This document shows, piece by piece, positions 1,561 through 24,229 of a stretch of 64,000 nucleotides of DNA (position 1 is its first letter; every line of letters starts with the position of its first letter). The notes beneath the pieces were generated by a model. The model was not told the DNA's origin, ran no database searches, and was given only the letters and a program-made list of their open reading frames with translations. Source of the stretch: an uncultured Desulfobulbus sp. (GTDB lineage: Bacteria; Desulfobacterota; Desulfobulbia; Desulfobulbales; Desulfobulbaceae). The stretch spans positions 2,544,001 to 2,608,000 of the forward strand of contig NZ_OY760916.1 in NCBI RefSeq assembly GCF_963664075.1, written 5' to 3'. The position numbers and the translations under genes were made by a program.

Positions 1561-1581
1561 TTGAGAGTAGATTATTTCAGT

Positions 1582-1601
1582 GGGGCTCAACAAAGAGCCC
1601 C
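1582..1601 (+). terminator. Stem-loop after the first flagellin
   Basis: A perfect 7-bp stem (GGGGCTC/GAGCCCC) with a 6-base loop begins 21 bases after the flagellin stop. It has no T-run, so it may stabilise the flagellin mRNA 3' end or be a weak terminator; the strong terminator lies further on at 1838. Confidence 0.5.
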
Positions 1602-1623
1602 TCACTCAACACAGGACAGCGCC

Positions 1624-1827
1624 ATGAAAATCGTTATGTTTCAGTATAATCGGGAAGCCTCGGCTATTCTCAGCCAAAATGCGTTGGGACAAGCGAAGAT
1701 CTCGCAAAAAAGACTGCAGGAATCACCACTCCCCCAGAGCTACAACGATCGGTTCCTCTGGGAGGGAGCGACCTCGTTTACAACACCACCTCAAGGCGAA
1801 TACATCATTCCTGGCAACTGGCAGTAA
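1624..1827 (+). CDS. Small protein of unknown function between two flagellins
   Basis: This encodes about 67 residues starting MKIVMFQYNREAS and ending IIPGNWQ. I do not recognise the family. A weak AGGA ribosome-binding site sits about 8 bases before the ATG, and a strong rho-independent terminator follows directly, as expected for a real terminal gene of the flagellin transcript. The protein has no signal peptide or membrane segment and is moderately charged. The frame is also open further upstream from a TTG touching the flagellin stop, but that start has no binding site. A flagellum-related role is only guilt by position; it could also be a chance frame. Confidence 0.45.
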   Translation: MKIVMFQYNREASAILSQNALGQAKISQKRLQESPLPQSYNDRFLWEGATSFTTPPQGEYIIPGNWQ

Positions 1828-1837
1828 GCAATCAAGC

Positions 1838-1880
1838 AAAGCCCCGGCTAAAAAAATTCAACCGGGGCTTTGTTGTTTTA
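1838..1880 (+). terminator. Rho-independent terminator
   Basis: A 10-bp stem AAAGCCCCGG (1838-1847) pairs with CCGGGGCTTT (1862-1871), followed by TGTTGTTTT. It ends the first flagellin/small-ORF transcript and separates it from the next flagellin. Confidence 0.85.
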
Positions 1881-2148
1881 TGAACTCCCCTTCTCAAAAA
1901 AAAACATTCGTTTTTAAAAATAAACCTAAAGTTCTTCTCTCAACCGTTCGATAAGCATGGTGAAGGCAAGGGAAATCATGACGATGCCCCTTTATTTCTC
2001 ACCAAATTTCAAGAAAATATTTTGCACGGAGGCGCTGATCGGCGAAAATAGATTTAAGCAGTGCATCGCAGTTTTTTTAAAGCAGTACCATAAAACGGCA
2101 AGGATGCCGTACATAGACAGAGCCTAAACATATTCAAGGAGGAATATC

Positions 2149-4335
2149 ATGGCACTTACAATTAACACAAACGTAGCCTCTCTCAATGCGCAGCGTAACT
2201 TAGGTGCAACCCAGAACTCGCTGGCAAAATCAATGCAACGTCTCTCTTCCGGTCTGCGAATCAACTCCGCAAAGGATGACGCAGCTGGTCTCGCCATTTC
2301 CGACCGTATGACCTCTCAAATCCGCGGTCTGAATCAGGCGGTTCGTAACTCCAACGACGGTATCTCTCTTGCACAGACCGCTGAAGGTGCGATGCAGGAA
2401 AGTACCAATATCCTCCAACGTATGCGTGAGTTGGCCGTTCAGTCTGCCAACGACACCAACAGCGAATCCGATCGTGTCTCCCTCCAGGCAGAGGTTAATC
2501 AGCTTAAACAGGAGCTGACCCGAATTGCCGAAACCACGACATTCAACGGTAAGAACTTGTTAGATGGTACTCTGACCTCAGCCCAGTTCCAGGTTGGCGC
2601 CAACTCTAACGAAACCATCTCTTTTTCCATCAACTCCGCAAAAGCAGTTGACCTGGGAAATAACTCCCTGGAATCTGTCAACACCACTTACGGTGTTGAA
2701 GTTGCTACCAATGTAAAAACATTTAGTGCCAGTGGCACAGAAATGGGTGTTGTCAATGCCCATGCAACGAACAACGGTCTCACTGGTGAGACAATTACTG
2801 TTCGAGACGCAGCAGGCACTGCCGTTCAGAGCTATACAGCAGGTGCTAATGCAGAAGCAGACACTATTGCTAGCAACCTCGATTCGATGACGGGTGTATC
2901 TGCTACGGCTACAAACGAAGTTGAAATTAAAGGTACTGCAGACGCAGGTACAGGAACGCTTGTCATTGACAGTAATGGTACATCAGTAACCATTGCCAAT
3001 ACTGTGAATACCGCAAGTGCAAGTGATTTATTAACAGCAATAACGGGTAACGGTAACTATGCAACAGCTGGATTTACTGCACGCCTCAACGATGCCGGTG
3101 ACGGAGTTATCCTCAGCAACACTACAGGTAAAGACTTTTCTTTTACCTCTAATGATGCTGGCGATTCATATACCGTAACCTCCACTTTGAGTTCAAAAAC
3201 TGGTACCGTTTCTAACGCTTCAGCAACGGTCTCCGGTCAGGTTAACATAGAATTAGATCCTTCATTTACCGCCGAATCCTCACTGGCTACCGGAGCAGGT
3301 TACTTCTCTGACGTTGCAGCAAATACTGCTGTGACCACAGTTAAAGAAGGTCTCTCTGACACCTCAGGTGGCAATAACACCGGTGCTCAGACTCTGACCA
3401 TCGTTGGTCCTGCAGGTGCTGAAGCAGTGAGTGTTTCCGCTGGTGACAGTGCCAATGCCATTGCTGATCTGGTCAATGATAAGTCTGCCTCCACAGGTGT
3501 GACTGCTCAAGCGCTCACTACAGCCACGATCAGCGATCTGAGCGCTGATGGATCGGTGAGTTTCACACTCCAGGGCACCAACGATACAGCTGTCAACATT
3601 AACGCTACCGTTACCAGGAGCAACCTGGCCTCACTGTCCCAGGCAATCAACGACCAGGCTGGTAATACCGGTATTACCGCCACGCTCTCTGCAGACAACA
3701 AGAGCATTGAGTTGACCCAGTCTGAAGGCCATGACATCAAACTGGGTGACTTTACCCATAGTGCAGCCGGTGTTGCCGGAACCACGGCCACCGTCAACAT
3801 TACCGGTAATGAAGGAACGGCAACAAAACTCACCGATGTGGCCGGTGCGACCACCGCTGCGGAGACTGCTGCCAACGCTGCCAACAACGACTCCACCGTT
3901 ATTGGTGGTCAGGTCTCATTCTCCAGCTCCGGTGATTTCAACATCGCCAGTAACATCACCGATGCTCAGGGCTCTCTGTTCGACAACTCTGTTGCTGGCA
4001 GCGCCAACGTCAGTTCCCTGAGTTCGATCAACGAGGTTGACATTACCACCGTTGAAGGTGCTGCTTCTGCCATTGACGCCATTGACGGCGCCCTGATGCA
4101 GATCGACAACATGCGTGGTGAGCTCGGTGCTATCCAGAACCGATTCGAGTCCACCATCTCTAACCTGAGTAACGTATCAGAGAACCTCTCCTCGGCTCGC
4201 TCTCGTATCCTCGATGCGGACATTGCCCAGGAAACCTCGGATATGACCAAGCAGAACATCCTTGCCCAGGCTGGTGTTTCCATCCTGGCACAGGCGAACC
4301 AGAGCCCGCAGTTGGCCCTGAGCCTGCTCGGTTAA
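2149..4335 (+). CDS. fliC: Flagellin, complete, with large variable domain
   Basis: This is the main filament subunit, secreted by the flagellar export machine. The start is fixed by an excellent AGGAGG site and the canonical N-terminus [18 protein letters not shown]. Residues 1 to about 165 are the conserved N-terminal D0/D1 region ([18 protein letters not shown] is visible); the last 90 or so residues are the conserved C-terminus with [14 protein letters not shown]. The roughly 470 residues between are a Thr/Ala/Ser/Asp-rich surface domain. Its second half (near bases 3345-3980) is homologous to the module duplicated in the preceding flagellin. At 728 residues it is much longer than the common 270-500. 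The conserved ends point to polymerisation through D0/D1 and exposure of the middle. A terminator follows directly, so it is probably transcribed alone. Confidence 0.97.
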
Positions 4336-4346
4336 TCGCTCTTCTT

Positions 4347-4391
4347 CCTGAAGGGGCTTAGAAAAGCCCCTTCAGGCTTTTGATATTTTTC
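4347..4391 (+). terminator. Strong rho-independent terminator after flagellin
   Basis: The stem CCTGAAGGGGCTT/AAGCCCCTTCAGG (4347-4376, short A-rich loop) is followed by a T-rich stretch ending in TTTTT. Confidence 0.92.
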
Positions 4392-4410
4392 TCTACACGG
4401 AGGTAAGCAG

Positions 4411-4758
4411 ATGAATATCGAGGCAATAGGCAGTGCAGTCGCCAGCCCCCCACGAACCGACGAAGCCAGTCAACAGGTTGATACCCAGCGCCAAGCTACC
4501 CAGGAAGCTGCACCCAGCTCATCGAAAGCGGAAAGTAAGGTGCAAACCGAAGAGCTCTTAAGCCAGATCAAGGCACTGACAGAAGATGGACTCTACAGCG
4601 TTCGTTTTGAACAAGGAAAAGAGGTTGAAGAATTGGTGGTAAAGATTGTGGACTCAAAAACCGATGAAGTGATACGGCAAATTCCGCCGGAAGAACTACT
4701 CAAACTCACCCAGCGCTTGAACGATTTAAAAGGGAATATAGTCGATACGTCAACTTGA
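4411..4758 (+). CDS. flaG: FlaG family flagellar protein
   Basis: This is a 115-residue protein with a Gln/Ala/Ser-rich, probably disordered N-terminal half (residues 1-50) and a conserved FlaG-like C-terminal half. The latter carries the typical pattern of a short beta segment (SVRFEQGKEVEELVVKIVD) followed by TDEVIRQIPPEELL. FlaG proteins influence filament length and assembly. The gene has a GGAGG site before its ATG and sits between the flagellin terminator and fliD, 24 bases upstream of fliD; that is the usual flaG-fliD-fliS order. Confidence 0.92.
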   Translation: MNIEAIGSAVASPPRTDEASQQVDTQRQATQEAAPSSSKAESKVQTEELLSQIKALTEDGLYSVRFEQGKEVEELVVKIVDSKTDEVIRQIPPEELLKLTQRLNDLKGNIVDTST

Positions 4759-4782
4759 CCCCATGAAGAGGAGACCAGGGCC

Positions 4783-6147
4783 ATGACGATTCAATTTGGC
4801 GGACTCGCAACAGGATTGAACACCAGTACCATCATTGAGCAGTTGATGGAGATAGAGCGGACCCCAATCACCCGTCTGGAAGCGGATCAGACCTGGCTGA
4901 ACAGTCGTCTTGAGGCCTACCAGGAACTGGATACACGGTTAAAGTCCTTTTCCGATGGCATTAAAGACCTCAATTACTCTTCAACCCTGCTGCAGCGATC
5001 CGTTAAACAGAGTTCAGAGAGTTATCTTTCTGCCTCGGCAAACGCCAATGCCGTAACCGGTGCCAGCTATCAGGTTGAGGTTGTCAGTCTGGCGCAGGTG
5101 CAGAAGTCTGTTTCTGAAACCGGCTACGCGGATACAAGCAGCGCACTCTTTGGCAGTGGCACCCTGACCATCAATGTCGATGGCACCGATCATCAGATCA
5201 CAATCAACGATGAGAACAACTCGCTTGCTGGAATTGTCAAAGCAATCAATGAAGCAGATATAGGCCTATCTGCAGGTATTATCAACACAGGGACCGATAC
5301 TGATCCCTATCGACTCTCTCTAACCGGAGAAAATGTTGCCACCGCATTTACCCTTGATGCAAGCGGACTAGTTGGTGGAGAAGCGCTGTCCATCGGCACA
5401 CCTGTACAAGCGGCGAGCCAGGCACATATTCGAGTGGATACTGTTGATATTTATAGTGATTCCAATACGCTTTCAGAGGCGATTCCAGGTGTTACCCTGG
5501 ATCTTGTCAAAGCTGAAGAGGGAACAACAACAACCCTCAATGTAAACGTCGACAAGGAGAATATCAAAACCGCTATCAGTGCCTTTGCCGAAGGATACAA
5601 CGAAGTCATCAGTTTTATTACCGAGCAGTCAGCTTATGGCGGGACAGAAAGCGGGGTTCTTGGGGGTGATGCCAGCATCAATGCTGTCAAACGACGTTTG
5701 CAGAACTTGCTTACGGAAACGACAGCAAACTCTGGCATTTTCAAAGCCATGTCGCAACTGGGTTTTGAAACCCAAAAAGATGGAACCATTGAACTCAATG
5801 AGACAACACTGAACAATGCCATCAATAATAATCTAGATGACATAGCAACCTTGCTCGCCGGTGAGGATGGGGTCACAGGGATAGCAACCAAGTTTAAAAA
5901 TTATCTCTATGACATGACCAATTCCGGGACAGGACTCTACAAGACCAAAAAAGAATCCATAGAGACTAATCTCGGAAAAATAGAAGAGCAAATTACAACA
6001 ACAGAAGCTCGACTGGAAATGCGGCAAAAAACGCTTGAGTCCCAGTTTAGCGCTATGGAAACGCTGGTAAGCAGCCTGAACTCGCAATCGGACTACCTGA
6101 CTCAGCAAATGGAAAATCTGAGCAACATGATGAGCGGGGGGAAATAA
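4783..6147 (+). CDS. fliD: Flagellar filament capping protein FliD
   Basis: FliD (HAP2) forms the cap at the filament tip and promotes folding and insertion of exported flagellin. The 454-residue product has the FliD N-terminal motif (FGGLATGLNTSTIIEQLM) and a central flagellin-hook IN segment (ITINDENNSLAGIVKAINEA). The C-terminal FliD_C coiled coil includes YLTQQMENL. Length is normal for the family. A GAGGAGA site precedes the ATG. The stop overlaps the fliS start by one base (TAATG), so translation is probably coupled. Confidence 0.97.
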   Translation: MTIQFGGLATGLNTSTIIEQLMEIERTPITRLEADQTWLNSRLEAYQELDTRLKSFSDGIKDLNYSSTLLQRSVKQSSESYLSASANANAVTGASYQVEVVSLAQVQKSVSETGYADTSSALFGSGTLTINVDGTDHQITINDENNSLAGIVKAINEADIGLSAGIINTGTDTDPYRLSLTGENVATAFTLDASGLVGGEALSIGTPVQAASQAHIRVDTVDIYSDSNTLSEAIPGVTLDLVKAEEGTTTTLNVNVDKENIKTAISAFAEGYNEVISFITEQSAYGGTESGVLGGDASINAVKRRLQNLLTETTANSGIFKAMSQLGFETQKDGTIELNETTLNNAINNNLDDIATLLAGEDGVTGIATKFKNYLYDMTNSGTGLYKTKKESIETNLGKIEEQITTTEARLEMRQKTLESQFSAMETLVSSLNSQSDYLTQQMENLSNMMSGGK

Positions 6148-6593
6148 TGAACGGATATGTGAACCAATACCTGACCAACACGGTCAACTCGGCCTCACCC
6201 GAGCAACTGATGCTGATGCTCTATGACGGAGCTATCAGATTTGTCGCCCAGGGCATTCAGGCCATCGAGGGCGGCATCATCGATAAGCGTGCGTATTACA
6301 TTAACAAAGCCTCTGCTATTATCTCAGAATTTGCCGCCACTTTAGACCACAGCCAAAACACCCAGCTCGCTGAGGATTTGGATGCGCTTTATAGCTATAT
6401 GCTCAAACGATTGCTGGAGGGAAATCTGAAAAATGATGCCAATGCGCTGCAAGAAGTAAAAGACATGCTTGCAGATTTGCGAGCAACTTGGGCCCAGGCC
6501 ATTGATCTCAACAAACAGGAAATGCGTGAAGCTGCTGGTATCGAGCCGACCGGCCCTGGTGCCAATTACAAACCTCTGACAGCGGCAATGTAA
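6147..6593 (+). CDS. fliS: Flagellar export chaperone FliS
   Basis: FliS binds the C-terminus of newly made flagellin in the cytosol and keeps it unfolded until export. The 148-residue all-helical product shows the typical N-terminus (NQYLTNTVNSASPEQLMLML-type, then YDGAIRFV) and the usual KA..I...L..TLD pattern in helix 2. It overlaps fliD by one base and is followed after one base by the FliT-like gene, so fliD, fliS and fliT-like form one translationally packed unit. Confidence 0.96.
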   Translation: MNGYVNQYLTNTVNSASPEQLMLMLYDGAIRFVAQGIQAIEGGIIDKRAYYINKASAIISEFAATLDHSQNTQLAEDLDALYSYMLKRLLEGNLKNDANALQEVKDMLADLRATWAQAIDLNKQEMREAAGIEPTGPGANYKPLTAAM

Positions 6594-6594
6594 T

Positions 6595-6993
6595 ATGAAT
6601 GCGCAAATTATTGAACAATCTCTCGCAGATTACCAGGCTATAGCGGAGCACCTGAATATCATTGAGCGAGCAATGCGTGGGCAGGACAGCAAAGTCATTA
6701 TTGCGCTCAGTCAACAGTTAATTCAGCTGCAGGAGCAGGTAAAGAGCAACGACAACACGATACTGGAGATGGTACATACCACTCCCGAGCTGCGCAGGGA
6801 TCCACATATCCTTGAACTCATAGAGCTGATGCGTGCAATCCACCAGCAGAACGAACGGGTTACCCGTCAGTTACGCTCAATATTGGTCATTCATCGTGAA
6901 GAATTAGTGAAGTTAAAAAAAGGGAATACGGTTTTACGGGGCTATCGGCCTGCTACCCAGCATACGGGCAAACGGATTTCCATCTCCAATTAA
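6595..6993 (+). CDS. FliT/FlgN-like flagellar chaperone
   Basis: This is a 132-residue, mostly helical, Gln/Leu-rich protein with no signal peptide. Its position directly after fliS (one base gap) and its helical pattern with a C-terminal LRGYRPA-type tail fit the FliT or FlgN class of small export chaperones. The family is too diverged to assign by eye, so the call rests largely on context. FliT proteins bind FliD; FlgN proteins bind FlgK and FlgL, and a clearer FlgN is encoded at 19497. Confidence 0.7.
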   Translation: MNAQIIEQSLADYQAIAEHLNIIERAMRGQDSKVIIALSQQLIQLQEQVKSNDNTILEMVHTTPELRRDPHILELIELMRAIHQQNERVTRQLRSILVIHREELVKLKKGNTVLRGYRPATQHTGKRISISN

Positions 6994-7137
6994 GAGCTTC
7001 TTCTTTCACGCAACTGTAAAACAGAGAACAAATCAGGGCCACCCAATCGCTAAAGGTGCGAAAAAATTCTTCCTTTCTTGGAAAGCTTATGGCAATCTAC
7101 ATACAACATCGAGCTTAATCCTAGAAAGGGTAATCAC

Positions 7138-7830
7138 TTGTCCTCACAAAAAAGTTTCTTACCGCAAGTAAAAGAAGGTTCTGCACTGAGAGTGGCTATT
7201 CCCCTCAAGGGGAATGCTGAAAAAGTGCGATTTCCCTGTTTCTTTGACGAGGCAACACCACCCAAATTTTCTTTGCGTTTTCCTCTGGATACTTTGGACT
7301 TTGCCCAGGTCGATACTGAGCGTCCGTGCACCCTCATGATAGATCTCCCCGAACAGACAGTGGCGATCGACGCTGATATGGACCGTTATGATCCACCATG
7401 CATTTTGCACTGTATAGAAAAAGACTCAACAACCCACACCCAAACACGAAACTATTTCAGGGTTGATGCGACAGCACGCGTTGCAGCTTCTTCGGTTGTG
7501 CCAGAAAATATGGCACGCGAAGGAGAAAGCTGGCGCATGCTTGGCGACACTATAGATTTGAGTGGCAGTGGCCTGCTGTGCGCGTTTAGCGATCCTTTGG
7601 AAAAAGGGACCCAGGTTCGCATAGAACTCACCCTTCCCAGCCAGAGCATGGATGTCATCAATGCTCTGGGCCATGTTGTACGTTGTCGAAAAATTGAAGA
7701 AGGGCTCTATCACGCCGCCTTGCATTTTGATCTGATCGACTCAGAGAGTCAGGATAAAATCATGGCCTGTTGTTTTGAACTTCAACGCCGATACTTACGC
7801 ATGCGTGTTAGTTTAGAACGTCCACTTTAG
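7138..7830 (+). CDS. YcgR-like PilZ domain protein
   Basis: This is a predicted cytoplasmic c-di-GMP receptor. The C-terminal half has both PilZ signatures: RNYFR (RxxxR) near residue 105 and DLSGSG (DxSxxG) near residue 140. The N-terminal half resembles the YcgR-N/PilZN beta domain. The likely start is TTG at 7138, seven bases after AGAAAGGG; an in-frame TTG at 7078 has no comparable site. In other bacteria YcgR acts as a flagellar brake when c-di-GMP is bound. Position between fliS/fliT-like and fliK, next to a paralogue, suggests control of motility. Stop codon is TAG. Confidence 0.88.
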   Translation: MSSQKSFLPQVKEGSALRVAIPLKGNAEKVRFPCFFDEATPPKFSLRFPLDTLDFAQVDTERPCTLMIDLPEQTVAIDADMDRYDPPCILHCIEKDSTTHTQTRNYFRVDATARVAASSVVPENMAREGESWRMLGDTIDLSGSGLLCAFSDPLEKGTQVRIELTLPSQSMDVINALGHVVRCRKIEEGLYHAALHFDLIDSESQDKIMACCFELQRRYLRMRVSLERPL

Positions 7831-7876
7831 TTGGCATATTTACCTATAACTCATTATCCCAAAGAAGATCATTACC

Positions 7877-8554
7877 GTGGCGAGCATAGTAACCTTACTT
7901 GATAAAATAAAAGATCACGCGACGACCATTGTCGATATTCCGGCAAAAGAGGGAGAGGATTATCGTTGCAAAGCCATATTGCGCAAAAAAGACGATACAG
8001 CGATTGAACTGGTTTTTCCACCCAACTCCTGGGAGCAGGAAAATCTCTCGCTCGGAGCTAACTGCAATCTGGCCGTGGAACACCAAGGAGAATCACTCAA
8101 TCTCATTGCGCGGCTTGATAAAGTCAGTGACGCACGCCGTCTCCTCTTTACCGCTCGCGAACCTGTCTCCCCTGAATCGTTACGCGATTATTTCCGTGTT
8201 TTGCTTAATACTCAAATAGAGGCCAGTTATATTGCCGGACCTCGAGAAGTGAATGCAAAAACCTGGAAAATGCTGGGAACAACCATTGATTTGAGCGGCA
8301 GCGGTGTACTTGCAGTCTTTGCTGAAAAGCCTTCTACACGCCACAATATACAGTTGGTGATCACCATGCCAGACGATGAGCCATCCGTCGTCTGCCTGGC
8401 TGAAATTGTCCGCACCTACCGCTTAAGAAAAAACCGCTATCAGGTGGCCTTTCACTTTGAAGTGATCAGCCAGAAAGCACGTGATCAGGTAATTTCTATC
8501 TGCTTCCAGGAACAACGCCGTCAACTACGCGAAAATGTACAAACTGAGGAGTAA
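7877..8554 (+). CDS. YcgR-like PilZ domain protein, paralogue
   Basis: A 225-residue paralogue of the preceding gene with the same two-part layout: an N-terminal YcgR-like beta domain and a C-terminal PilZ domain with RDYFR and DLSGSG. Both c-di-GMP-binding motifs are intact. The GTG start has only a modest purine-rich site (AAAGAAG). The two genes probably arose by tandem duplication, followed by clear divergence outside the ligand motifs. The role is likely c-di-GMP-dependent modulation of flagellar function; separate partners for the two copies are possible but not shown. Confidence 0.87.
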   Translation: MASIVTLLDKIKDHATTIVDIPAKEGEDYRCKAILRKKDDTAIELVFPPNSWEQENLSLGANCNLAVEHQGESLNLIARLDKVSDARRLLFTAREPVSPESLRDYFRVLLNTQIEASYIAGPREVNAKTWKMLGTTIDLSGSGVLAVFAEKPSTRHNIQLVITMPDDEPSVVCLAEIVRTYRLRKNRYQVAFHFEVISQKARDQVISICFQEQRRQLRENVQTEE

Positions 8555-8647
8555 AGGCCGAAGTCCTTTTTTTTCTGTGTACATTATAGAAAGGCTGTAC
8601 AAGACGCTTTCTCCTTTGCCGAAACAAGCATAGCTCAATGAGGAACC

Positions 8648-10138
8648 GTGGCTATCACTCCTCTGATTCCAGAGATCCAAGCCCTTTCACCAACCAGTAA
8701 ACTTGAGAGTCAACTCCAGCGCCCTGCTTCCGGGTTTACCCTCGGCCAGCTCGTGCAGGCCTCAGTTGGCTCAAAAGATGCATCGACCAATGTACTCACC
8801 TTGCACATCGGTGAGAAACACATCCCCGTAGAAACAATAGCAAATTTTAAACCTGGTCAAAACCTGACCCTTGAGGTAACCGCCCTAACCCCGCAACTGC
8901 AGTTGAAGGTTGCTGACCAGAACCAGATCAATGAACTTAATCAGCGTATAGCTTCTTCGCTGCATACTATCCTTCGTCAGGGAGAATCGCTCAGTGAGTT
9001 GGCAAATCTTACCCAACACACGCAACTTCCTCAACTCAGCACAGACTCACAGCAGGTCTTGCAACAGCTGCAGATACACCTGTTGAGCGACAAGCCCACC
9101 CCCTCAGGCCTTGCATCAATCATCACCCAGATAGCAAGTCTTCTCTCTGAAGCAGAAGCGACTTCTACGAGCAGCCAAAATCAAACCATCGGAGCTCTTT
9201 TAGGAGCAATACAAGCATTGCCTGAAGCCCCCTTGGTAACACGCCAAGAGGCTGCAGCCCTGGCAAAAATATTTATCCCAACAGGAGCAGACAACGGATC
9301 CCCGGGCATGCAGGGGAATCTCGAGAGTTCAATTCTGTTCTCTAAGCAAGGGGCTGCAAGCCTCGCACAGAACGACGCAATGCGCCAACTGCTAAGTTTA
9401 CCCGAGGCATTACAAACAGCCCTTCGTCCACTAGTCGAACTGTACACCTCAGGGAAAAACTTCTCACAGCCCTTGGTTCAATTGACATTTTTTCTCCTCC
9501 AGGCGGCGCAGACACACACACACCATGCCCCCCCTCCTGTTACTGGACAGCAACTCCAGCAATCCCTTGAACTACTGGGGACAAACATGGAACGACTCTT
9601 GTCTCAAGGAAAGAGTCAGGAGGCTGCCCATACACTCAAGTTTGCACTGTTGGAACTCACAAGTCAGAGTCCTGCACCTTCTCTTCAGCAGACCGTTGAT
9701 GAAGCTCTGCACACCATCCAATTTTCACAACTCGTTCAGATGCGCTTAGGGTTCGAGTCTATTTTTTTTATGCCGCTCCCTTTCCCCTTTCTTCAGTCAG
9801 GTTTTTTACTTATTGACCATAAAAATCAAAAAGATAGGCAGGAAAACCAACAAAAAAACCGACAACAACATGAACTGAGCTTATATCTGCAGCTCGAAGG
9901 CCTGGGCAATCTCAACATTACAGTGCACCAGGAAGATAATAAGATCAACCTGACCTTCTATTCCCAGGATGCCTCACGTGCGCAGTTCATAGGTTATCAT
10001 AAGCAAGAATTAACAACACTACTCAGCACAGGCACCCTTTATTCGGCTCAGTTTCTGGTTGGTGCGCAAGAACCGATTAAGATACTCATAGAAAAAATGC
10101 TCCATGCCCCCACCGGGATGGTCAATATCAGTGTTTAA
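8648..10138 (+). CDS. fliK: FliK-like flagellar hook-length control protein
   Basis: The 496-residue product starts at GTG after GAGGA. It has a long Gln/Ser/Thr/Leu-rich N-terminal and central part, typical of the molecular-ruler portion of FliK. The compact C-terminal domain (about residues 405-496) shows the Flg_hook pattern of alternating beta strands (LQLEGLGNLNITVHQE, then INLTFYSQD). FliK is exported during hook building and switches the export gate from hook to filament substrates. In related genomes fliK usually precedes flgD and flgE. Here flgD is absent and flgE resumes about 6.4 kb later, after an insertion-rich stretch. Confidence 0.8.
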   Translation: MAITPLIPEIQALSPTSKLESQLQRPASGFTLGQLVQASVGSKDASTNVLTLHIGEKHIPVETIANFKPGQNLTLEVTALTPQLQLKVADQNQINELNQRIASSLHTILRQGESLSELANLTQHTQLPQLSTDSQQVLQQLQIHLLSDKPTPSGLASIITQIASLLSEAEATSTSSQNQTIGALLGAIQALPEAPLVTRQEAAALAKIFIPTGADNGSPGMQGNLESSILFSKQGAASLAQNDAMRQLLSLPEALQTALRPLVELYTSGKNFSQPLVQLTFFLLQAAQTHTHHAPPPVTGQQLQQSLELLGTNMERLLSQGKSQEAAHTLKFALLELTSQSPAPSLQQTVDEALHTIQFSQLVQMRLGFESIFFMPLPFPFLQSGFLLIDHKNQKDRQENQQKNRQQHELSLYLQLEGLGNLNITVHQEDNKINLTFYSQDASRAQFIGYHKQELTTLLSTGTLYSAQFLVGAQEPIKILIEKMLHAPTGMVNISV

Positions 10139-15078: not shown

Positions 15079-15847
15079 GCTGCTGGTTTCAATCCGCAAT
15101 CATCGGTAAACAATCTTCAGCTCTTGGCTATTCTGAAACATTTTCAGGAACAAGCGCAAAAAAGATCTGGAAACGCTGCCAACAAAGACCGAAAAAACCT
15201 TTCTGCCGCCTGGAATTGGGGGAGAGATTATATCGGGTTGCCGTATGAAAATCCTTTTCAGCGAACCACCAAACAAGGTGAGGTCCGTCATGAAAGGCGA
15301 ATTCCTACCCTTTCCGAATTTTGGAAGGTGTATGAGAAAACCACAGAGCTCCAGGATAAGCGAATGCTGCTGTGCTATCTCTACTCAGGGGCTCGTCGGG
15401 CTGAATTTTTTCAACTCCGCTGGCAGGATGTTGATTTCATCAACGGACGTATTCGGCTACACTGGAAAAAGAATCGGCTCGGCACCTTGAACGCGGCCTG
15501 GATCGCCATGACTGACGAAGCCATGGAAGCCCTGCGGGACCAACACCGTGCAACAGGAAGTTGCAAATGGGTATTTGTGGAGCCAGGCACAGCCCTGCCC
15601 TATCAAGTACCGCACGCAATGGATGCGGCGTTTATGCAAGCGGGCCGGAGTGGAAAGATTTGGTTTTCATGGAATACGCCATTTGTGCGCGTCGATCTTG
15701 GCGAGTAAAGGCGTACCGCTGGTAGATATACAAGATCATCTGCGGCACGAGAATATTTCGACCACAGAAAGGTATATCCATAAAATAAAAAAAAAACCGG
15801 TCAGTGATCAATGCACTAACCGGGTTACAACCTATTCTGTCGGATGA
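15079..15847 (+). pseudogene. Tyrosine recombinase (phage-type integrase), degraded
   Basis: This is a site-specific recombinase remnant. The open frame begins right at the IS256 right end, without a proper N-terminus. It contains the first catalytic Arg (SGARRAEFF). Near base 15605 the frame shifts; one extra base in CTATCAAGTACC would explain it. The continuation in the other frame carries HGIRHLCASIL (the HxxR box), LRHENISTTERYIH (second His and the Tyr nucleophile) and a normal C-terminus ending at 15847. It lies 70 bases from the 3' end of tRNA-Glu, the usual place for a tRNA-targeting integrase. Truncation plus frameshift make it non-functional. Confidence 0.85.
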
Positions 15848-15916
15848 AAGCCCCCAAAGGGCCCCCACTTCAAACTCGACAGATATGATAACAATCACCA
15901 AGTGATTGAAATTACT

Positions 15917-15992
15917 TGGTGACCCCAAGGGGACTCGAACCCCTGTTCCCGGCGTGAGAGGCCGGTGTCCTAGGCCACTAGACGATGGGGCC
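15917..15992 (-). tRNA. tRNA-Glu (anticodon CTC)
   Basis: On the - strand the sequence folds as a complete cloverleaf. The acceptor starts GGCCCCA, the anticodon stem is CCGGC/GCCGG with loop CTCTCAC (anticodon CTC), and the T arm contains GGTTCGAGTCC. The CCA end is encoded at 15917-15919. It borders the degraded integrase, so its 3' end is a plausible old attachment site. Confidence 0.96.
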
Positions 15993-16509
15993 ATGTCGTG
16001 TGGAACGTGGCTATTATATCGAGATACACCCTACTTGTCAAGAAAACTTTTCTGATAGAATACACATTTTAGACCTTCTCTCCTCATTTTCAGCGTCGCA
16101 CGATTTCACACGTAATGGTTGCGTGAAACACCTTTCCAGCAACACACTGATATCACTAACTAAAACTCAAACTCCTCTCTCGTTCAAGTTTTAGCTTTGT
16201 CCACTGAGCATGCTTTCCATCACACACATTGTTACACCATTGACCAAGCTTCTAATTTTGCAACATTCTTCGTACTCAACGTTACGATATCACGATAAAA
16301 ATCAACACCACTCCCTGTCGATAACCTAGCAAAGAGCCCTGTACCAATTGCTCAGGAAGAGCAAAACAGTGCTTTTAGAAACTGTTCTCTCCAGGATGGG
16401 GAGTGTTGCTGCAAGGACGCACTCAAAAGCCGATATATTGCTCTCTGGGGCGGATACGCATTAATCCGGTTCCGTGAAACAAATATGGCGACCTGTTCAG
16501 GGGACACAC
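15993..16509. other. Intergenic region upstream of flgE
   Basis: About 520 bases without a credible gene. It must hold the upstream signals of the flgE-flgN-flgK-flgL group, but I see no clear sigma-28 or sigma-54 promoter. A structured-looking stretch at 16320-16470 contains several short hairpins but does not match the c-di-GMP riboswitch core. Confidence 0.5.
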
Positions 16510-16789
16510 ATGGGACTTTCAACCGCACTCTATACTGCTATCACCGGGCTTCAGGGAACCTCGCAGGCTATGACTGTCACCGGCAACAATATTGCCAACA
16601 GTTCAACGGTGGGTTTTAAATCAAGCTCTACGCTCTTTTCCGATCTTCTTTCCGCGAATATCGCAAGCTCGAGTGGGAACTCTCAAGGTTGGCCGAGGAG
16701 CACAAGTTCAGACCGTTCAAACCAACTACAGCCAAGGTGGCTTTGAATCCACTGAAAGTTCCACTGATATCGCGATTGAAGGAGATGGC

Positions 16790-18481
16790 GTAACTACTCA
16801 CCCCTATTCTTCGGCATCAGGCAGAGTTCCTGCCAGTGCCAACTGGATAGCGACAAGAGGATTGATCCCCTGGCTTGCCATGGTCTGCAGGTAACTTGAA
16901 ATCCTGCAGTAAGCCTGGGCATATTGTTTACGTCGAAAACAACCGGATATTTTCTGTTTTACCTTAGCCATGCGAAGATCCCTTTCCGCTCTGTTGTTGG
17001 TGAACGGTACATGTGGTTCTTTGGCAAAAAGCAAGACTGCCGCCTCATGCTTTTGTAATCGCTCCCAAAGATTGTGCGCATCGGATTTGGCTATCCTGCC
17101 GCGCTTCCCTTGGGGTTTTGGAGGGATCTTGGGCAACTCCTTGCTGCCACGCGTAAGGATATTACGGTAGCGCTTCTGCAGGTTGGCATACTCCCGTTCG
17201 GTAAGACATTTTTCCGGACGTTGAGCCACCGTACGACACGTTTGCTGGAGCACCGCTTTTAGATTGCGGGCCCACCGGTATTGGTTAGAGTCAACGACAA
17301 ACGTCAACTCTCGCAAAAGGTGCGAGCCGCAAAGTCCGTGACCGCAATGGTCGTAGGATAAATATGATGCCCAGCAATCATGGATGATCACCCCGCCATA
17401 CCGAGGGATGATATTCAATCCTTCGATTGCCTCCTTGCCCCGCTTTCGATGCAGTACTTTCAGGGTTGTTTCGCCGGAAGAATAGACGTGAATCCAGTGA
17501 TTCTTCCCTTCAACCCGAAACGAGGTTTCATCCACATGCAGGGATGGAGCCTGCAGCAGCCTATCAATAGCTCTGGATTCCCATGCTTCGAGTGATTGGT
17601 ACAAGCGCAAAACAAATTTGAGCAGGCTGGCCTCGGAGATTACGCTACCGATCATGGCTGCTATCTGTTTTTGAACCCGGTTTAAAGCGACCATCTGGCT
17701 GATAACCAAATGAATGGCAAACGCTTTAAGCCCATTGCCGTACTGCAGCTTACCCGGCATATCGTCAGGGAAACGCCCTTTGACCGTGGCCTCACAATTA
17801 GGACATTGCTTTATTTCTGCGTCAATATGTTCGACAACTTTTTCAAAAACGATGTCGATTTTTGTCCGACGTTCATGCCCCTGGCATGCAACGTTTTCCA
17901 GCACCATTCCGCAGGTATCACACACCTCGACCTGAGCAGTGGTGACTGATTCTTTGACGCGTGTATTACCAACACGCCCATTGACGTGTTTTCCCTTGCC
18001 GGTAGTGGTGCAGTGCTTGGTCGCAGTTTCGTCTTTCTCGGTTTGCGAAGAAGGAATGCTCGAGTTTTTGTTTCCCTTGCGCGTTGTCTTCTCAAGAAAG
18101 ATAGAGAGTATCAACTCGACGACAACCAACAGACTGTTGAACAGGACCCGTATCTCAGAGGAGACTTTACCGTCGGAACAAAGCTGTTCAAATTCCTGTT
18201 TGAGGAGATCGACTTCTTCGCGAACCCTTATTTTATTTACTGTTCCCATGGGTTTACTATACCATGGCTTTTTTCGACCTCCTGTGCGCCCATGAGTTGA
18301 ACGATTGAACGCTATCGCATCTGTTTGCTATCGGAACGCAATATTGGAACGATTTAGAGACGACCAGGCGCGTTGATGGGCATTTTTGTTGGCATCCCTG
18401 GCTATTGAAAAAAAATCCGGCAAAAACCTGTCAAGTTATTTATTTGGATTTGAGCTTTTTTTAGAGGGTGTGAGTAGTTAC
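16790..18481 (-). mobile_element. IS66-family (ISBst12-like) insertion sequence in flgE
   Basis: The element is 1,692 bp long. Its ends are inverted repeats starting GTAACTACTCAC on both sides. It is flanked by a perfect 8-bp direct repeat GAGATGGC (16782-16789 and 18482-18489), the target duplication expected for IS66 elements. Only one gene is present, without the small accessory tnpA/tnpB genes of larger IS66 elements. Intact ends, intact transposase and a perfect duplication indicate a recent insertion. Confidence 0.95.
16804..18249 (-). CDS. IS66-family transposase (TnpC type)
   Basis: A 481-residue transposase with an N-terminal helical segment, a Lys/Thr-rich linker, a zinc-binding region with CDTCG and CPNCE pairs (residues about 115-160), and a DDE catalytic domain. 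Acidic residues lie in LHVDETSFR (first Asp), IIHDCWASY (second Asp) and FTNNRAERDLRMAKVKQK (Glu). The C-terminus is a normal IS66 tail. No stop or frameshift is visible, so it is probably active. Confidence 0.95.
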   Translation of the reverse strand: MGTVNKIRVREEVDLLKQEFEQLCSDGKVSSEIRVLFNSLLVVVELILSIFLEKTTRKGNKNSSIPSSQTEKDETATKHCTTTGKGKHVNGRVGNTRVKESVTTAQVEVCDTCGMVLENVACQGHERRTKIDIVFEKVVEHIDAEIKQCPNCEATVKGRFPDDMPGKLQYGNGLKAFAIHLVISQMVALNRVQKQIAAMIGSVISEASLLKFVLRLYQSLEAWESRAIDRLLQAPSLHVDETSFRVEGKNHWIHVYSSGETTLKVLHRKRGKEAIEGLNIIPRYGGVIIHDCWASYLSYDHCGHGLCGSHLLRELTFVVDSNQYRWARNLKAVLQQTCRTVAQRPEKCLTEREYANLQKRYRNILTRGSKELPKIPPKPQGKRGRIAKSDAHNLWERLQKHEAAVLLFAKEPHVPFTNNRAERDLRMAKVKQKISGCFRRKQYAQAYCRISSYLQTMASQGINPLVAIQLALAGTLPDAEE

Positions 18482-19496
18482 GAGATGGCTATTTTATCGT
18501 AACTGATCCACTCAACGATGGAAGCCTATACACCCGCAACGGTAACTTCAGTTTTGACGAAAACGGCTATCTGGTGACAGCCGATGGTTTACGGGTTCAA
18601 GGGGCAACCTATAACAGCAGCGGCGTGCTGACAAGCGGCAGCCTGAGCGACATCCAGGTCGACATGGTCTCACAGATTGAGGCTAAAACAACGGAAAATG
18701 TTGAGCTTCAAACCAATCTCGACTCGAATTCTGACATCCTCAACGGCGGTGTTTTTAATATCACCACCCCTGAAGAAACTTCCCACTACGACACGACTTC
18801 AACCATTTGCGATTCACTGGGAACATCACACCTGCTTACATGTTACTTCACCAAAGTAAGTAATCAGATCTGGGACTGGAACCTGACGGTTGACGGTGGA
18901 GATCTCACAGGAGGTACAAGCGGCGTACTGGAAAATGTCGGTACCGGCACACTTACCTTTGACACAGACGGCAATTTGGTTACAGGCGGAACAGGAACGA
19001 CCACAGCAGGTATTCTCACCTGGGACAATGGCTCCGATCAAACCCAGCTTGTCACCTACACCTTCGACACAACTCAGTATGACAGTGACTCCACTGTATT
19101 TTCCCAGGACCAGGATGGGTACTCATCCGGTGAAGTAACCGATGTGGATATATCCTCAGACGGCACTGTAAGCGCCGTATATTCAAACGGTGAAACCTTA
19201 CCAGTCGCCATGATATCCCTGGCAACCTTTATCAACGACGATGGTCTGGATGCTGTGGGGAGCAGCCTCTTTTCTGAAACCAGCGAATCCGGCACGCCCA
19301 CCCTTGGATACCCCGGCCCCTCACAGGGGACACTGATTACCCAAGCCCTGGAACTTTCCAATGTTGACCTGGCAACCGAATTCGTTGACCTCATTACCAT
19401 TCAAAACGCCTATTCGGCATCTTCCAAGGTCATTACAACGACAAACGAGATGTTGGATGAACTGGTTAATCTCATTCGTTAACAGGAGCCGCAGCT

Positions 19497-19847
19497 ATGA
19501 AAAATGATACGCTAAAACAGAGCCTGCAGGCATTCAACGACCTTCTTGTCCGTGAGCGACGAGCAATTGCCCATCTGCGCATGAGCCAGCTGCACGAACT
19601 TCAACATGAAAAAATTGAGTTAATGAAAGTGCTCAACCAGCAAGAAGATGCGGTTGATGAAGAAGAAAAAGCAGTTATTGAGTCTATCAAAAAAAACAAT
19701 GAGCGTAATCGCATGCTCCTTGAATCTGGCCTCAAACTGGTGAAACGGCTGCAGGATAATACCTTTCGGCGCACTCTGACCTATGCTCCTCTTGGGCGCT
19801 CAATGCAAATCGGTGTTGGACCTCGGGTACTCAACCGGAGTGTATAG
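19497..19847 (+). CDS. flgN: FlgN-type flagellar chaperone
   Basis: A 116-residue helical, charged protein with the FlgN-like coiled-coil pattern. FlgN proteins bind the hook-filament junction proteins FlgK and FlgL in the cytosol and deliver them to the export gate. It starts 14 bases after flgE with an AGGAG site and ends 2 bases before flgK, fixing its place in a flgE-flgN-flgK-flgL unit. Sequence identity is weak by eye, as is usual for the family; context is strong. Confidence 0.85.
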   Translation: MKNDTLKQSLQAFNDLLVRERRAIAHLRMSQLHELQHEKIELMKVLNQQEDAVDEEEKAVIESIKKNNERNRMLLESGLKLVKRLQDNTFRRTLTYAPLGRSMQIGVGPRVLNRSV

Positions 19848-19849
19848 CC

Positions 19850-21067
19850 ATGGCTAACCTGATCACCTCTCTCTATACCGGCGCATCCGGCATTTATGCT
19901 AGCCAGTCTGCTGTGCAGATAACGGGTAACAACATCACCAATGCCAGCACCGAGGGGTATACTCGCCAGGGCACCAATGTTATCAGCAACACGCCCTTAA
20001 CCCAGAGCGGGCTCACCTATGGCACAGGCAGTTCTGTTAACTCCATTGACCGTAGCAACGATACCTTTATCATCAAACAGCTGCTCGCCCAGGAAGCAAC
20101 CTATGGTGAGTACGATGGTGCCAGCACTCCCCTTTCAGATATCGAACAAGTGCTCGACATCAGCGATACCAGCTTATCAAGTGATATTGACAGTTTTTTT
20201 GATGCCTGGGAAGAGCTAAGCACCAATCCGGCAGGGACAACAGAACGACAGCAGGTGATTCAGGAGGCAGCTAACCTGGCAGAACATTTTCAACAGATCG
20301 ACCAGCAGCTGGGCGATGTGGTGGAATCTATCAACACCAGCATTGAATCCATCATCCCTGATCTCAATGACAACCTGCAGCAGATTGCCAATCTGAACCA
20401 GTCGATTATGCAGGCGGAGCTGTCAGGTGGAGATGCCAATACGATGCGCGATGAACGTGACCTTTTGGTACAGGAGATAAGCGAAACCTGCGGAGCCTCC
20501 ATGTACACAGATAACAATGACATGCTCTGCCTTCAGCTCGAAAATGGCCTGCCCCTGGTCACCGGCAATGTAGCGTCAACACTTTCAACTGCAACTGTCA
20601 GTGGCCTTACTGAAATTACCCTGACCACAGGAAACACCAGCTTTAATCTTGATCATGAAGATTTCAGCGGTGAGTTAAAAGGCCTGCTTTCGGTGCGGGA
20701 TGTGACTATTCCCGAATTTGATGATCCATCATTGATTGCAGCGGGGACCACCGGCGCAACTGCTGACAACAGCCTCTGTCTGGATATTGCTGCCCTGCGT
20801 GAAACCACCAGCATCAACGGATCAACCTACACAGAGGAATATTCGCGAATTGCCGCCAATGCAGGTCTTCAGGTGGTCAGTAATGAGCAACGCTTAACCG
20901 CAAGTACCGAATCCATGGATGAGCTCAGCGCAAAACGCGACTCGCTCTCCGGCGTTTCTACGGATGAAGAAATGGTTCTCCTCATTCAGTACCAGGCTGG
21001 TTATGAGGCAGCGTCCAACTACATTGGCATCGTCAAAGACATGCTCGATACCTTGTTGCAGATGTAA
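19850..21067 (+). CDS. flgK: Flagellar hook-associated protein FlgK, shorter than usual
   Basis: FlgK (HAP1) forms the junction between hook and filament. The N-terminus has the rod/hook family signature (SLYTGASGIYASQSAVQITG, then NNITNASTEGYTRQ). The C-terminal helix has YQAGYEAASNYI and a normal end. At 405 residues it is short. Between LLSVRD near residue 285 and DPSLIAAGTTGA near residue 300, the segment with the VN..H..G motif usually found in FlgK is missing without a frameshift. This looks like an in-frame deletion of several dozen residues in the variable domain. The ends needed for polymerisation remain. Confidence 0.93.
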   Translation: MANLITSLYTGASGIYASQSAVQITGNNITNASTEGYTRQGTNVISNTPLTQSGLTYGTGSSVNSIDRSNDTFIIKQLLAQEATYGEYDGASTPLSDIEQVLDISDTSLSSDIDSFFDAWEELSTNPAGTTERQQVIQEAANLAEHFQQIDQQLGDVVESINTSIESIIPDLNDNLQQIANLNQSIMQAELSGGDANTMRDERDLLVQEISETCGASMYTDNNDMLCLQLENGLPLVTGNVASTLSTATVSGLTEITLTTGNTSFNLDHEDFSGELKGLLSVRDVTIPEFDDPSLIAAGTTGATADNSLCLDIAALRETTSINGSTYTEEYSRIAANAGLQVVSNEQRLTASTESMDELSAKRDSLSGVSTDEEMVLLIQYQAGYEAASNYIGIVKDMLDTLLQM

Positions 21068-21084: not shown

Positions 21085-21963
21085 ATGATCATAACACGCG
21101 ACACCACCACTTACAGAAATCTGCAGTCAAATCTAAGTTCAACCTCCTCGACCATCAATGAGCTGTACATCAAAACATCGACCGGCATCGATATAGACAA
21201 AGCCTCGGAAAACCCGTCATCCGTGGGGACAATCATTAACTGCCGTACTGATATAGTCAAGAGTGAACGGTACGTTCAAAATTGCAACAATGTAACCGAT
21301 AATCTCTCCACCTCTGAAATCTATCTCAATTCACTAGAGGAGCTCATGGTTCGGGCTAAAGAGATTGCCAGCACTGGAGCCAACTACAGCATGTCAGACA
21401 GTGACCGGCAAACACTGGCCGATGAGGTCGCGCAACTACAGGAAGAGCTACTTGATTTAGCGAACACCCAGGTCGATGGCAAGTACCTCTTTGCCGGTTA
21501 TGCTGACCAGACTCTCCCCTTTTCTGGCTCTCCGGTTACCTATAGCGGCATAAATGACCACATCATGATTGAAGTCAATCCTGGATCTACAGTTGCAAAA
21601 AACATAACCGGTGAAGAATTGTTCATGAGCCCGGTCAACCTGTTCACCGCCCTGGAAAACCTGGAAACCGCCCTCTCCAGCGGTACGACCAGTGCTATTT
21701 CCAATACCCTGACAACGCTTGAAGACGGGGCAGAACAGGTACGTACCAAACAAAGTACCCTGGGCAACACCATTTCACGGATGGACGATATGATCAGCAT
21801 GCATGAAAACGCTTTACTGATAATAGAGTCCACCCTTTCCAGTCATCAAGATGCGGACCTGACCAGCATCTTATCGGAAATCGCTGAGATGGAGACAGCC
21901 TTGGAGGCCACCATGCAGGTCACGGCCCGTGTCTCCTCCCTGAGCTTACTTGACTACCTTTGA
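21085..21963 (+). CDS. flgL: Flagellar hook-associated protein FlgL
   Basis: FlgL (HAP3) is the second junction protein, next to the filament. The 292-residue product has the flagellin-like N-terminal region (TYRNLQSNLSSTSSTINELY, then IKTSTGIDIDKASENPS), a DLANTQVDGKYLFAG motif, and a C-terminal coiled coil. Length is normal. A good AAGGAG site precedes the ATG. It is the last gene of the flgE-flgN-flgK-flgL group. Confidence 0.95.
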   Translation: MIITRDTTTYRNLQSNLSSTSSTINELYIKTSTGIDIDKASENPSSVGTIINCRTDIVKSERYVQNCNNVTDNLSTSEIYLNSLEELMVRAKEIASTGANYSMSDSDRQTLADEVAQLQEELLDLANTQVDGKYLFAGYADQTLPFSGSPVTYSGINDHIMIEVNPGSTVAKNITGEELFMSPVNLFTALENLETALSSGTTSAISNTLTTLEDGAEQVRTKQSTLGNTISRMDDMISMHENALLIIESTLSSHQDADLTSILSEIAEMETALEATMQVTARVSSLSLLDYL

Positions 21964-22468
21964 AAGCAGCATTTGCTCGCACTACCAGGGAAGCATTAAA
22001 CGTCCCCAGTAGCCCACGTAACCGTTGTCTCCCAACGGACTCGAGCTGATACAAAAACGTAATTCAAACATCCCCCCCTCTTCTTCATCTAATAAAGCAA
22101 TCACCCTGATCAAAAATTCAGAATTTCAATATCTTTACCTACATTTTCCTCTTCCCTCAGCGGGCTTCAGCTGGTAGGGTGATGAAGAACAAACGAATAA
22201 AAGGGTCAAAACGATACAGCTACAAAATTCTTTATCGGGATTATTCAGCATAAGAACATCTCTTCATTTCCGCTGGTATTCCAACCAATTATACAGCTGG
22301 ATGTTTTGTGTGTCAGGAGGAGACACTTCCCTTGTCGTTTTTCTTTCTTTTCGCCACCTTTACATTCATTTTTTACACAATTCGTCTTCTTGAATAGGTT
22401 TCGTGCCCTTCACTTCTCCTTGCTGCATACATGCAAAAAGGAGAAAAAACTCTGTCGTGGAGATCAAG
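21964..22468. other. Intergenic stretch, no clear feature
   Basis: About 500 AT-rich bases between flgL and the GGDEF-EAL gene. I see no gene, no strong terminator and no clear promoter. The 3' part should contain the promoter of the next gene. Confidence 0.4.
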
Positions 22469-24229
22469 ATGGCACATAAAAAGGTTTCTATTCACTCCGA
22501 GACCAATGTATCTGGTTTGCTTGCCCAAATAGTCAACAACTCTCCGGTGGCTACCTTTGTCATCAATAAGGCACACGAGGTTATCCACTGGAACCGGGCC
22601 TGCGTGATGATCACCGGTGTGTCTGAAAAACAGCTCATCGGAACAACTCAATCGTGGAAGCCTTTCTACGACCATCATCGTCCAGTTATGGCCGACTTGA
22701 TCGTTGATGATCAGATGGATCAACTTTCCACCTACTATTCGGAAAAATATCATCCCTCAACAACCATCGAGGGGGCCTGGGAAGCTGAGGATTTTTTCCC
22801 TCACTTTCCAAGTGGCGGCAAATGGCTCGCTTTTACCGCAACTGCGCTTAAAGACGAAAAAACTGGGGCTACCATCGGTGCCATCGAAACACTTCGCGAC
22901 ATCACCGCGCAAAAAATATATCAGCAACAATTGGAGCACCAGGCCAACTATGATCCGCTCACAGGACTCGCTAATCGCCACCTGCTCCACACCCGCCTGG
23001 ACCTTGCCATCAGCCAGGCTAAAAGAGATCGCCTCCTGCTGGGAGTTCTCTTTCTAGACCTCGACAATTTCAAACAGATAAATGACACCTTAGGCCACGA
23101 TGCGGGCGATGATGTCATTCGTGAATTTGGCAGTCGCCTCAAGAGCTCTGTACGTGACCTGGATACCGTTGCCCGTATTGCTGGCGATGAATATGTGGTT
23201 CTTTTGTATGCACCGCAGAACCTCGTTCAGGTGACGACGATTGTTCGGCGTCTATTAGATACGATCAACCATAAGTTTATCGTACGCAACCGTGAAATCT
23301 ATATAGGAGCCAGTGTGGGCATTGCTCTCTATCCCAAAGATGGCCCGGAGAGCCAAACGCTTTTAAGTAACGCTGATGCAGCCATGTACCGTGCCAAACA
23401 GCACGACAAGGGCAGTTTTCGTTTTTACACTGAAGATCTCAATAAAGATGCGATCCAATGGCTGGAGTTAAAACAAGAGCTGCACCACGCCCTCACCTCC
23501 GGTCAATTTGAGTTGTATTACCAACCCCAGTATTCAATACAGGAAAAACGGATTACAGGGGCTGAAGCCCTACTGCGCTGGAACCACCCCACACGCGGTA
23601 TTCTTCATCCAGAATTATTTGTTACGCTGGCCGAAGAAACCGGACTGATTGTGCCCATTGGCAACTGGATTATAAAGACCGCCATCGCCGATGCTCAGCA
23701 ATGGCAGCAAGCCTATGGTCAGCCGCTTCGACTTTCGATCAACATTTCTGCCCGCCAGTTCCGCTATGATGATCTCGGTGAGTTACTGGACCAGGCCATC
23801 ACCCAAACCGGTTTTCACCCACTGAACTTGGAACTTGAACTCACCGAAAGTCTGGTTATGGACAACCCGAAGGAGTCCAACAAACGACTGCTGAAGCTCA
23901 AGGAAAAAGGATTTTCTCTAGCCATGGACGATTTTGGCACTGGTTATTCCAGTCTGGCCTATCTGAACTATTTCCCCTTTGACATGATAAAAATTGATCA
24001 GTCATTTATTCATCAGCTGGGAAAATCAGATGAAGCCGACGCAATTGTTCGCGCCATGCTGCACTTGGCCAAAGCATTACAACTGCGGGTCGTGGCCGAG
24101 GGAGTTGAAAATCAGCACCAACGCACATTTTTAGAAGAGGAAGGTTGTGAGGAAATTCAGGGGTACTGGTTTAGTCACCCCTTGCGAGCCGGTGAATTTC
24201 TTACGTTGCTGCAGACACAGCCGGCATAA
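22469..24229 (+). CDS. PAS-GGDEF-EAL c-di-GMP turnover protein
   Basis: This cytoplasmic protein (586 residues, no membrane segments) has a PAS sensor domain (residues about 15-155), a GGDEF domain with the active-site variant AGDEY near residue 238, and an EAL domain with GAEALLRW near residue 362. Phosphodiesterase residues such as LELELTESL, DDFGTGYSSL and IKIDQSF are kept. It can therefore probably hydrolyse c-di-GMP. AGDEF-type cyclases are often active, so synthesis is also possible. The ATG at 22469 has a GGAG site; the frame extends 22 codons upstream without one. Beside PilZ-rich flagellar genes it is a natural local c-di-GMP controller. Confidence 0.93.
   Translation: MAHKKVSIHSETNVSGLLAQIVNNSPVATFVINKAHEVIHWNRACVMITGVSEKQLIGTTQSWKPFYDHHRPVMADLIVDDQMDQLSTYYSEKYHPSTTIEGAWEAEDFFPHFPSGGKWLAFTATALKDEKTGATIGAIETLRDITAQKIYQQQLEHQANYDPLTGLANRHLLHTRLDLAISQAKRDRLLLGVLFLDLDNFKQINDTLGHDAGDDVIREFGSRLKSSVRDLDTVARIAGDEYVVLLYAPQNLVQVTTIVRRLLDTINHKFIVRNREIYIGASVGIALYPKDGPESQTLLSNADAAMYRAKQHDKGSFRFYTEDLNKDAIQWLELKQELHHALTSGQFELYYQPQYSIQEKRITGAEALLRWNHPTRGILHPELFVTLAEETGLIVPIGNWIIKTAIADAQQWQQAYGQPLRLSINISARQFRYDDLGELLDQAITQTGFHPLNLELELTESLVMDNPKESNKRLLKLKEKGFSLAMDDFGTGYSSLAYLNYFPFDMIKIDQSFIHQLGKSDEADAIVRAMLHLAKALQLRVVAEGVENQHQRTFLEEEGCEEIQGYWFSHPLRAGEFLTLLQTQPA

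Follow-up and report, generated by a model that had tools for sequence, protein, structure and literature searches.

A hook gene paralogue interrupted by a frame shift and an IS66-family element, probably part of a decaying accessory flagellar set in Desulfobulbus

Second hook genes occur in several bacteria, with distinct genetic settings. Excerpts of a study of Rhodobacter describe a second flagellar system (fla2) that carries flgE2, flgK2 and flgL2 beside the main set, has basal genes of its own (flgB2, fliF2, fliI2 and fliP2) and makes a separate structure (PMC6180460). A secondary flagellar system is also named for Shewanella putrefaciens in the excerpted text of PMC8203827. In Bdellovibrio bacteriovorus, two genes are annotated as flgE (Bd0530 and Bd3395), and insertion mutants of both were without lytic halos, according to extracts of the report (PMC2277423). 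The locus analysed here resembles that of Bdellovibrio in the presence of more than one flgE-type gene; it differs in that Bd0530 is listed as a basal-body rod protein, and the same extracts describe no hook-to-cap set (PMC2277423). Second hook and junction genes are common to Rhodobacter fla2 and the present locus, whereas fla2 has its own basal genes and the genome studied here has a single FlhA. Compared with the standard hook and hook-associated proteins FlgE, FlgK, FlgL and FliD, the set described below has the same domain make-up and the same order flgE-flgN-flgK-flgL, but it is an additional set that has its own regulator, and the four genomes tested hold a single export gate each. Among the matches listed for second hooks or extra flgE genes in the open-licence literature, the titles and opening lines of abstracts name no such set in Desulfobulbales.

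The locus lies in a stretch of 64,000 nucleotides (the window; G000:C1:2544001-2608000) of the one-contig, 4,775,109-base genome of an uncultured Desulfobulbus sp. The flgE-type gene at 16510-19482 is an flgE paralogue (flgE2) in three pieces, comprising two frames and then the remainder past an insertion. The first frame (16510..16686, plus strand) is 80-98% identical to all six intact FlgE2 proteins of relatives, with a PF00460 match on 16510-16743. The second frame, which reads on as far as the insertion (16676..16789, plus strand), is 49-87% identical to the same six, the lowest values stemming from alignments that start further upstream. These two spans overlap because the shift point is no finer resolved: comparison with the six intact proteins places a net +1 shift between about 16676 and 16692. 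The 3' part (18490..19482, plus strand) is open, and PF07559, PF06429 and PF22692 match on 18484-19479, where the FlgE D1, D2 and C-terminal domains are present. The N-terminal rod-type domain, D1, D2 and C-terminal domain are thus all in the window gene, in pieces; the same four stand in one chain in the FlgE2 proteins of genome G014 and of Desulfobulbus sp. GS12 51. The frame break that the initial annotation had put near 16686 is borne out by these comparisons. A programmed frameshift was rejected, since this stretch of flgE2 is a single frame in six relatives.

The insertion is an IS66-family element of 1,692 bp (16790..18481, plus strand) whose ends share their first 12 bases. It is flanked by two perfectly matching copies of the 8-bp target duplication GAGATGGC, at 16782..16789 on the left and 18482..18489 on the right (both plus strand), and encodes a 481-aa transposase (16804..18249, minus strand) with a PF03050 (DDE_Tnp_IS66) match at E 4.9e-39; the IS66-type insertion with a perfect duplication was thus also read correctly from the start. 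The genome holds 22 full copies at 97-100% identity, the window copy included, and one 78-bp piece. The transposase is open at 481 aa in all 20 copies examined, and perfect 8-bp duplications flank 14 of these 20, with six lacking them. Three other copies differ from the window copy by only two bases each, which indicates that the element moved recently. Canonical IS66 members carry the accessory genes tnpA and tnpB, and a single-gene subgroup is without them. The window element may belong to that single-transposase subgroup, ISBst12. The transposase is the sole gene recognised in it (small ORFs lay outside the family search). With its IS66 transposase domain, 8-bp target duplication and matching ends it has the features of the family, with no notable difference seen. 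The perfect duplication and the open transposase would suit a reversible switch of flgE2, but the separate frame shift and the loss in flgK2 described below would outlast excision, and this reading is very improbable.

A search of the genome for the rod/hook C-terminal domain returned eight genes. An intact main flgE of 633 codons, with all four FlgE domains, lies at G000:C1:2518150-2520051, about 40 kb upstream of flgE2, in a flagellar cluster that runs into the window. When this cluster was compared with that of G014, 51 ORF pairs were matched at E 1e-12, and each partner in the window strain was a single open frame; the pairs aligned over almost their full length, with the exception of FliK, where the alignment covers the C-terminal part alone. 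Two of the 51 pairs are small ORFs overlapping real genes, and G014 frames without a match would go unlisted. Within these 51 pairs, no broken gene was found. The end of the cluster (1..10138, plus strand) comprises two flagellins, FlaG, FliD, FliS, two PilZ proteins and a FliK-like protein, all open; the first flagellin starts before the window, and the FliK-like protein falls below its Pfam cut-off. Pfam matches support the names FlgE, FlhA, FlgK, FlgL, FlgN, CsrA, FliW, flagellins, FlaG, FliD and FliS, while most other names in the main cluster are putative assignments from gene order. Two further flagellin genes, of 586 and 272 aa, lie outside the cluster (G000:C1:4302568 and 2627457; L116 and L117). 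A lone 127-aa protein with both rod-type domains is encoded far from it (L013 7336-7719, minus strand), and short rod-type matches stand alone in relatives as well.

These results change the meaning of the broken gene. The initial annotation had named the search for a second flgE beforehand as its own counter-test, and that search found the intact gene upstream. The lesions that it saw in a hook gene stand, but the broken copy is the second flgE and not the sole one. Of the two options it offered, a spare locus agrees with the genome, and a non-motile strain does not follow from an intact main flgE in a cluster without a broken gene; judged from the genome sequence, the main flagellum of the window strain should be unaffected. 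The alternative that the strain has no other functional hook gene, so that cells without this one would lack both hook and filament and be non-motile, could draw on the two independent lesions and on variation in motility between D. propionicus strains, mentioned in excerpts of PMC3608642. Against the complete 633-aa FlgE with its four domains, in a cluster where no broken gene was found, it is very improbable.

The gene flgE2 is the first of flgE2-flgN2-flgK2-flgL2 in the window. The second, flgN2 (19497..19847, plus strand), is an open export chaperone paralogue; PF05130 is below cut-off, and orthologues 43-83% identical occupy the same place in relatives. It is followed by flgK2 (19850..21067, plus strand) and flgL2 (21085..21963, plus strand), the latter open at 292 aa and over the TIGR02550 cut-off; the longest flgL2 frame has the same length in four of the six intact relatives and 296 aa in the other two. 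The whole gene order, with all frames open, occurs in six relatives: Desulfobulbus sp. GS12 51 (L019, G037), D. elongatus (L020, G038), Desulfogranum japonicum (L023, G036), G014, G097 and G114. These carriers span Desulfobulbus, Desulfogranum and another genus of the order. Carriage is patchy: FlgE2 is found at 70% identity or more in four of 23 same-genus genomes (the strain's own included, several incomplete), and FlgL2 at 63% or more in five of 116 genomes drawn from the order, a list from which G014 is absent. Two weak candidates for FlgL2 carriage, G070 and G106 (40% and 36%), were dropped after their matches proved to be main-set flgL. The FlgE2 proteins form one clade of seven rows apart from 22 other FlgE, with support 100/100. 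The FlgE2 proteins of G014 and G114 (329.5 and 336.2 bits) miss the cut-off of 400 of the NCBIfam FlgE equivalog NF004238, as does the main FlgE of the window strain (313.5 bits); the cut-off of the FlgE/F/G subfamily TIGR03506 (70.25) is exceeded by all four proteins tested, among them the 3' part of the window flgE2. Next to the module lies a gene for a PAS-GGDEF-EAL protein (22403..24229, plus strand), assigned to c-di-GMP turnover from its domain matches, and the same gene stands beside the module in G014 and D. rhabdoformis.

Each of the six genomes with the whole set also has a second cap gene, fliD2, followed by a gene for a regulator with an OmpR-type winged helix. In G037, G038 and G114 this pair lies near the module; in G014 it is found away from it, and G036 and G097 carry it on a different contig. 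The winged-helix domain PF00486 is present in all four regulator copies tested, and the regulator is 63-76% identical in the five genomes other than that of the query. A protein search of the window strain's genome found no such regulator, the match with the best E-value being 30% identical, and four module-less genomes gave either no match or one of at most 31%. FliD_C genes number two in all four other carriers tested, one in the window strain and one in both module-less genomes tested. The single FliD_C gene, together with the lack of a close regulator match, suggests that the window strain has lost fliD2 and its regulator; fliD2 was not found in one FliD_C profile search, which a short remnant could have escaped, as could a remnant of the regulator. 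The initial annotation had taken intact flagellins, fliD and fliS as a sign of recent loss, an argument that fails because those genes belong to the main cluster. Flagellin genes number two to four in all five carriers tested and one in all four other genomes (one of these a partial match), after FlgL-like matches were set aside by length and score; genome size and kinship confound this contrast.

FlhA is single in all four carriers tested (G000, that of the window strain, G009, G011 and G014, where G009 and G011 were taken as the same genomes as G037 and G038 on the basis of identical contig numbers and coordinates), and a complete second flagellar system was rejected on this ground. A single export gate and the conservation of the set in relatives argue for an accessory hook, junction and cap set rather than a second flagellum. 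With good confidence, flgE2 can be read as the hook paralogue of such a set, whole in several relatives and decaying in the window strain, where the main flagellum should be spared. Family membership points to FlgE2 forming a hook, as opposed to mixing with the main hook subunits or having another role, and the set as a whole probably serves to form an additional outer structure on the same basal body as the main flagellum.

The decay extends beyond the two lesions in flgE2 that had been reported correctly, a further one in the neighbouring flgK2 having been overlooked. The window flgK2 encodes 405 aa against 463-465 aa in all six intact relatives, with an in-frame loss of 60 codons after residue 290 (window 20719/20720; 58-60 residues fewer). 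This removes the end of the FlgK helical domain: the FlgK_D1 profile is matched at 1-199 of 233, whereas FlgK2 of G014 and the main FlgK both match it in full (1-233). The window FlgK2 is over the TIGR02492 cut-off, but in two stretches. The set as a whole, as its sequence stands, cannot be expected to work in the window strain. In D. rhabdoformis (L021, a draft), the nearest named relative by FlgK2, the flgK2 frame breaks at about 1560-1600. The gene is damaged at the same point in these two lineages, by in-frame loss in one and a frame break in the other, which may reflect a shared weak spot or a shared first event. The first 122 bases or so of the D. rhabdoformis contig, within flgE2, are foreign DNA; related DNA is present in eight of 22 genomes searched, which points to a mobile element, though the foreign start may perhaps be an assembly edge, and Rfam gave no match for it. 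The accessory set thus seems damaged in D. rhabdoformis too; the excerpted literature contained no statement on the motility of this species.

Substitutions in the module still bear the mark of purifying selection, if only as a rough estimate. Between the window strain and G014, the four module genes have pN/pS values of 0.13-0.18 and eight main genes values of 0.05-0.18, and the last 64 codons of flgE2 show 30 synonymous and no nonsynonymous differences from D. rhabdoformis, synonymous sites being near saturation and the figures correspondingly rough. A long-dead pseudogene was rejected, given pN/pS values like those of main genes and no sign of long relaxed selection. Since pN/pS is still low, the loss appears recent on an evolutionary scale, and in that sense alone does the earlier proposal of recent loss hold; nothing points to laboratory culture, and no support was seen for a switch to sessile life. 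The pattern may be read as a stepwise loss of genes that had long been in use. An error of assembly, of which single-base differences are a common kind, might account for the flgE2 frame shift, and the IS66 insertion would then be the sole real lesion and a single recent event. The 51 ORF pairs compared in the adjacent main cluster include no broken frame, and with flgK2 shortened and neither fliD2 nor its regulator found, the loss is not a single event in any case, so this account is unlikely. The same small probability attaches to the module being a leftover, without present function, of a complete second flagellar system of lateral type after ancestral loss of its basal body. The separate FlgE2 clade would fit such an origin, as would the flgE2, flgK2 and flgL2 of Rhodobacter fla2 in the excerpts of PMC6180460 and, in G097, a second flgD directly before flgE2 (L138 140-976); G114 has a broken, degenerate flgD remnant (L137 8965-9414). 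Useless leftovers would, however, be expected to break, whereas all frames are open in six genomes, selection figures resemble those of main genes, and the regulator is co-inherited.

A conserved leader precedes flgE2 (16391..16420, plus strand), with two GGA hairpins that resemble CsrA sites. The pattern CCAGGAYGG...GCANGGAYGC occurs before flgE2 in all seven genomes compared, ending 82-121 nt before the start codon, with a GGA-to-GGA spacing of 19-22 nt (21 nt in five genomes). It has one match in the window and none in 100 shuffles, and is present in 21 of 141 loci, all 21 preceding an flgE2 start (overlapping copies of the same places included); a scan of viral contigs gave 47 stretches, taken as background. 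Every sequence pairs in helix 1, and at two of its pairs both bases vary, though 73 of 500 column shuffles reach the score and covariation alone is weak. In single-sequence folds of five leaders the first GGA is in a loop, and the second hairpin does not appear in all. Rfam gave no match for the leader, and a regular-expression search for sigma-54 and sigma-28 sites in the five leaders located found nothing common. The genome encodes CsrA (PF02599) and FliW (PF02623). According to extracts of PMC4894983, the CsrA-bound flaA leader of Campylobacter jejuni has two stem-loops with ANGGA in the loops and 21 nt between the GGA motifs. Its layout is similar to that of the flgE2 leader (two GGA hairpins, 21 versus 19-22 nt); it differs in covering the flagellin ribosome-binding site, whereas the putative flgE2 site ends well short of the hook gene start (PMC4894983). 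The leader may thus place flgE2 under CsrA control, with a DNA operator as the alternative.

In relatives, FlgE2, FlgK2, FlgL2 and FliD2 would be exported through the shared gate and would assemble into a hook, hook-filament junction and cap alternative to the main ones while using the same basal body; the set's own winged-helix regulator and the leader of the flgE2 mRNA would control the switch. The window strain is probably losing the set piece by piece: the IS66-family element supplied one flgE2 lesion, and the flgE2 frame shift, the in-frame shortening of flgK2 and the seeming lack of fliD2 and the regulator would be the other losses. A wider proposal is more tentative, and somewhat less likely to hold than to fail: that a single basal body carries two interchangeable outer flagella in some Desulfobulbales, the accessory one formed by FlgE2, FlgK2, FlgL2 and FliD2 with a chaperone, a regulator and a CsrA-type leader of its own, in some a neighbouring c-di-GMP enzyme and perhaps a second flagellin, and that the window strain is losing this set. 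With a second hook-to-cap set kept by several sulfate reducers, and one export gate in those tested, one basal body could carry two kinds of outer flagellum. The broken hook then becomes a natural experiment, in which the window strain and apparently D. rhabdoformis are dropping the set; in the relatives retaining it, the set is small and could be deleted.

An integrase remnant (window 15091-15992) lies beside tRNA-Glu(ctc), about 500 bp before flgE2, and in G014 an open 360-aa integrase stands beside tRNA-Glu(ctc) next to flgE2; the presence of an integrase at this tRNA gene near flgE2 in both genomes suggests an insertion hot spot. Adjoining the remnant is a Mutator/IS256-type transposase (window 13994-15034), matched from profile position 76 on only. 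A gene at window 10167-11096 (minus strand), presumably a radical-SAM gene as named from its sequence, has one in-frame stop, and its G014 orthologue is open. Farther downstream, near tRNA-Pro, the window contains a match to Group II intron D1-D4-3 (RF02001; 56592-56760, minus strand).
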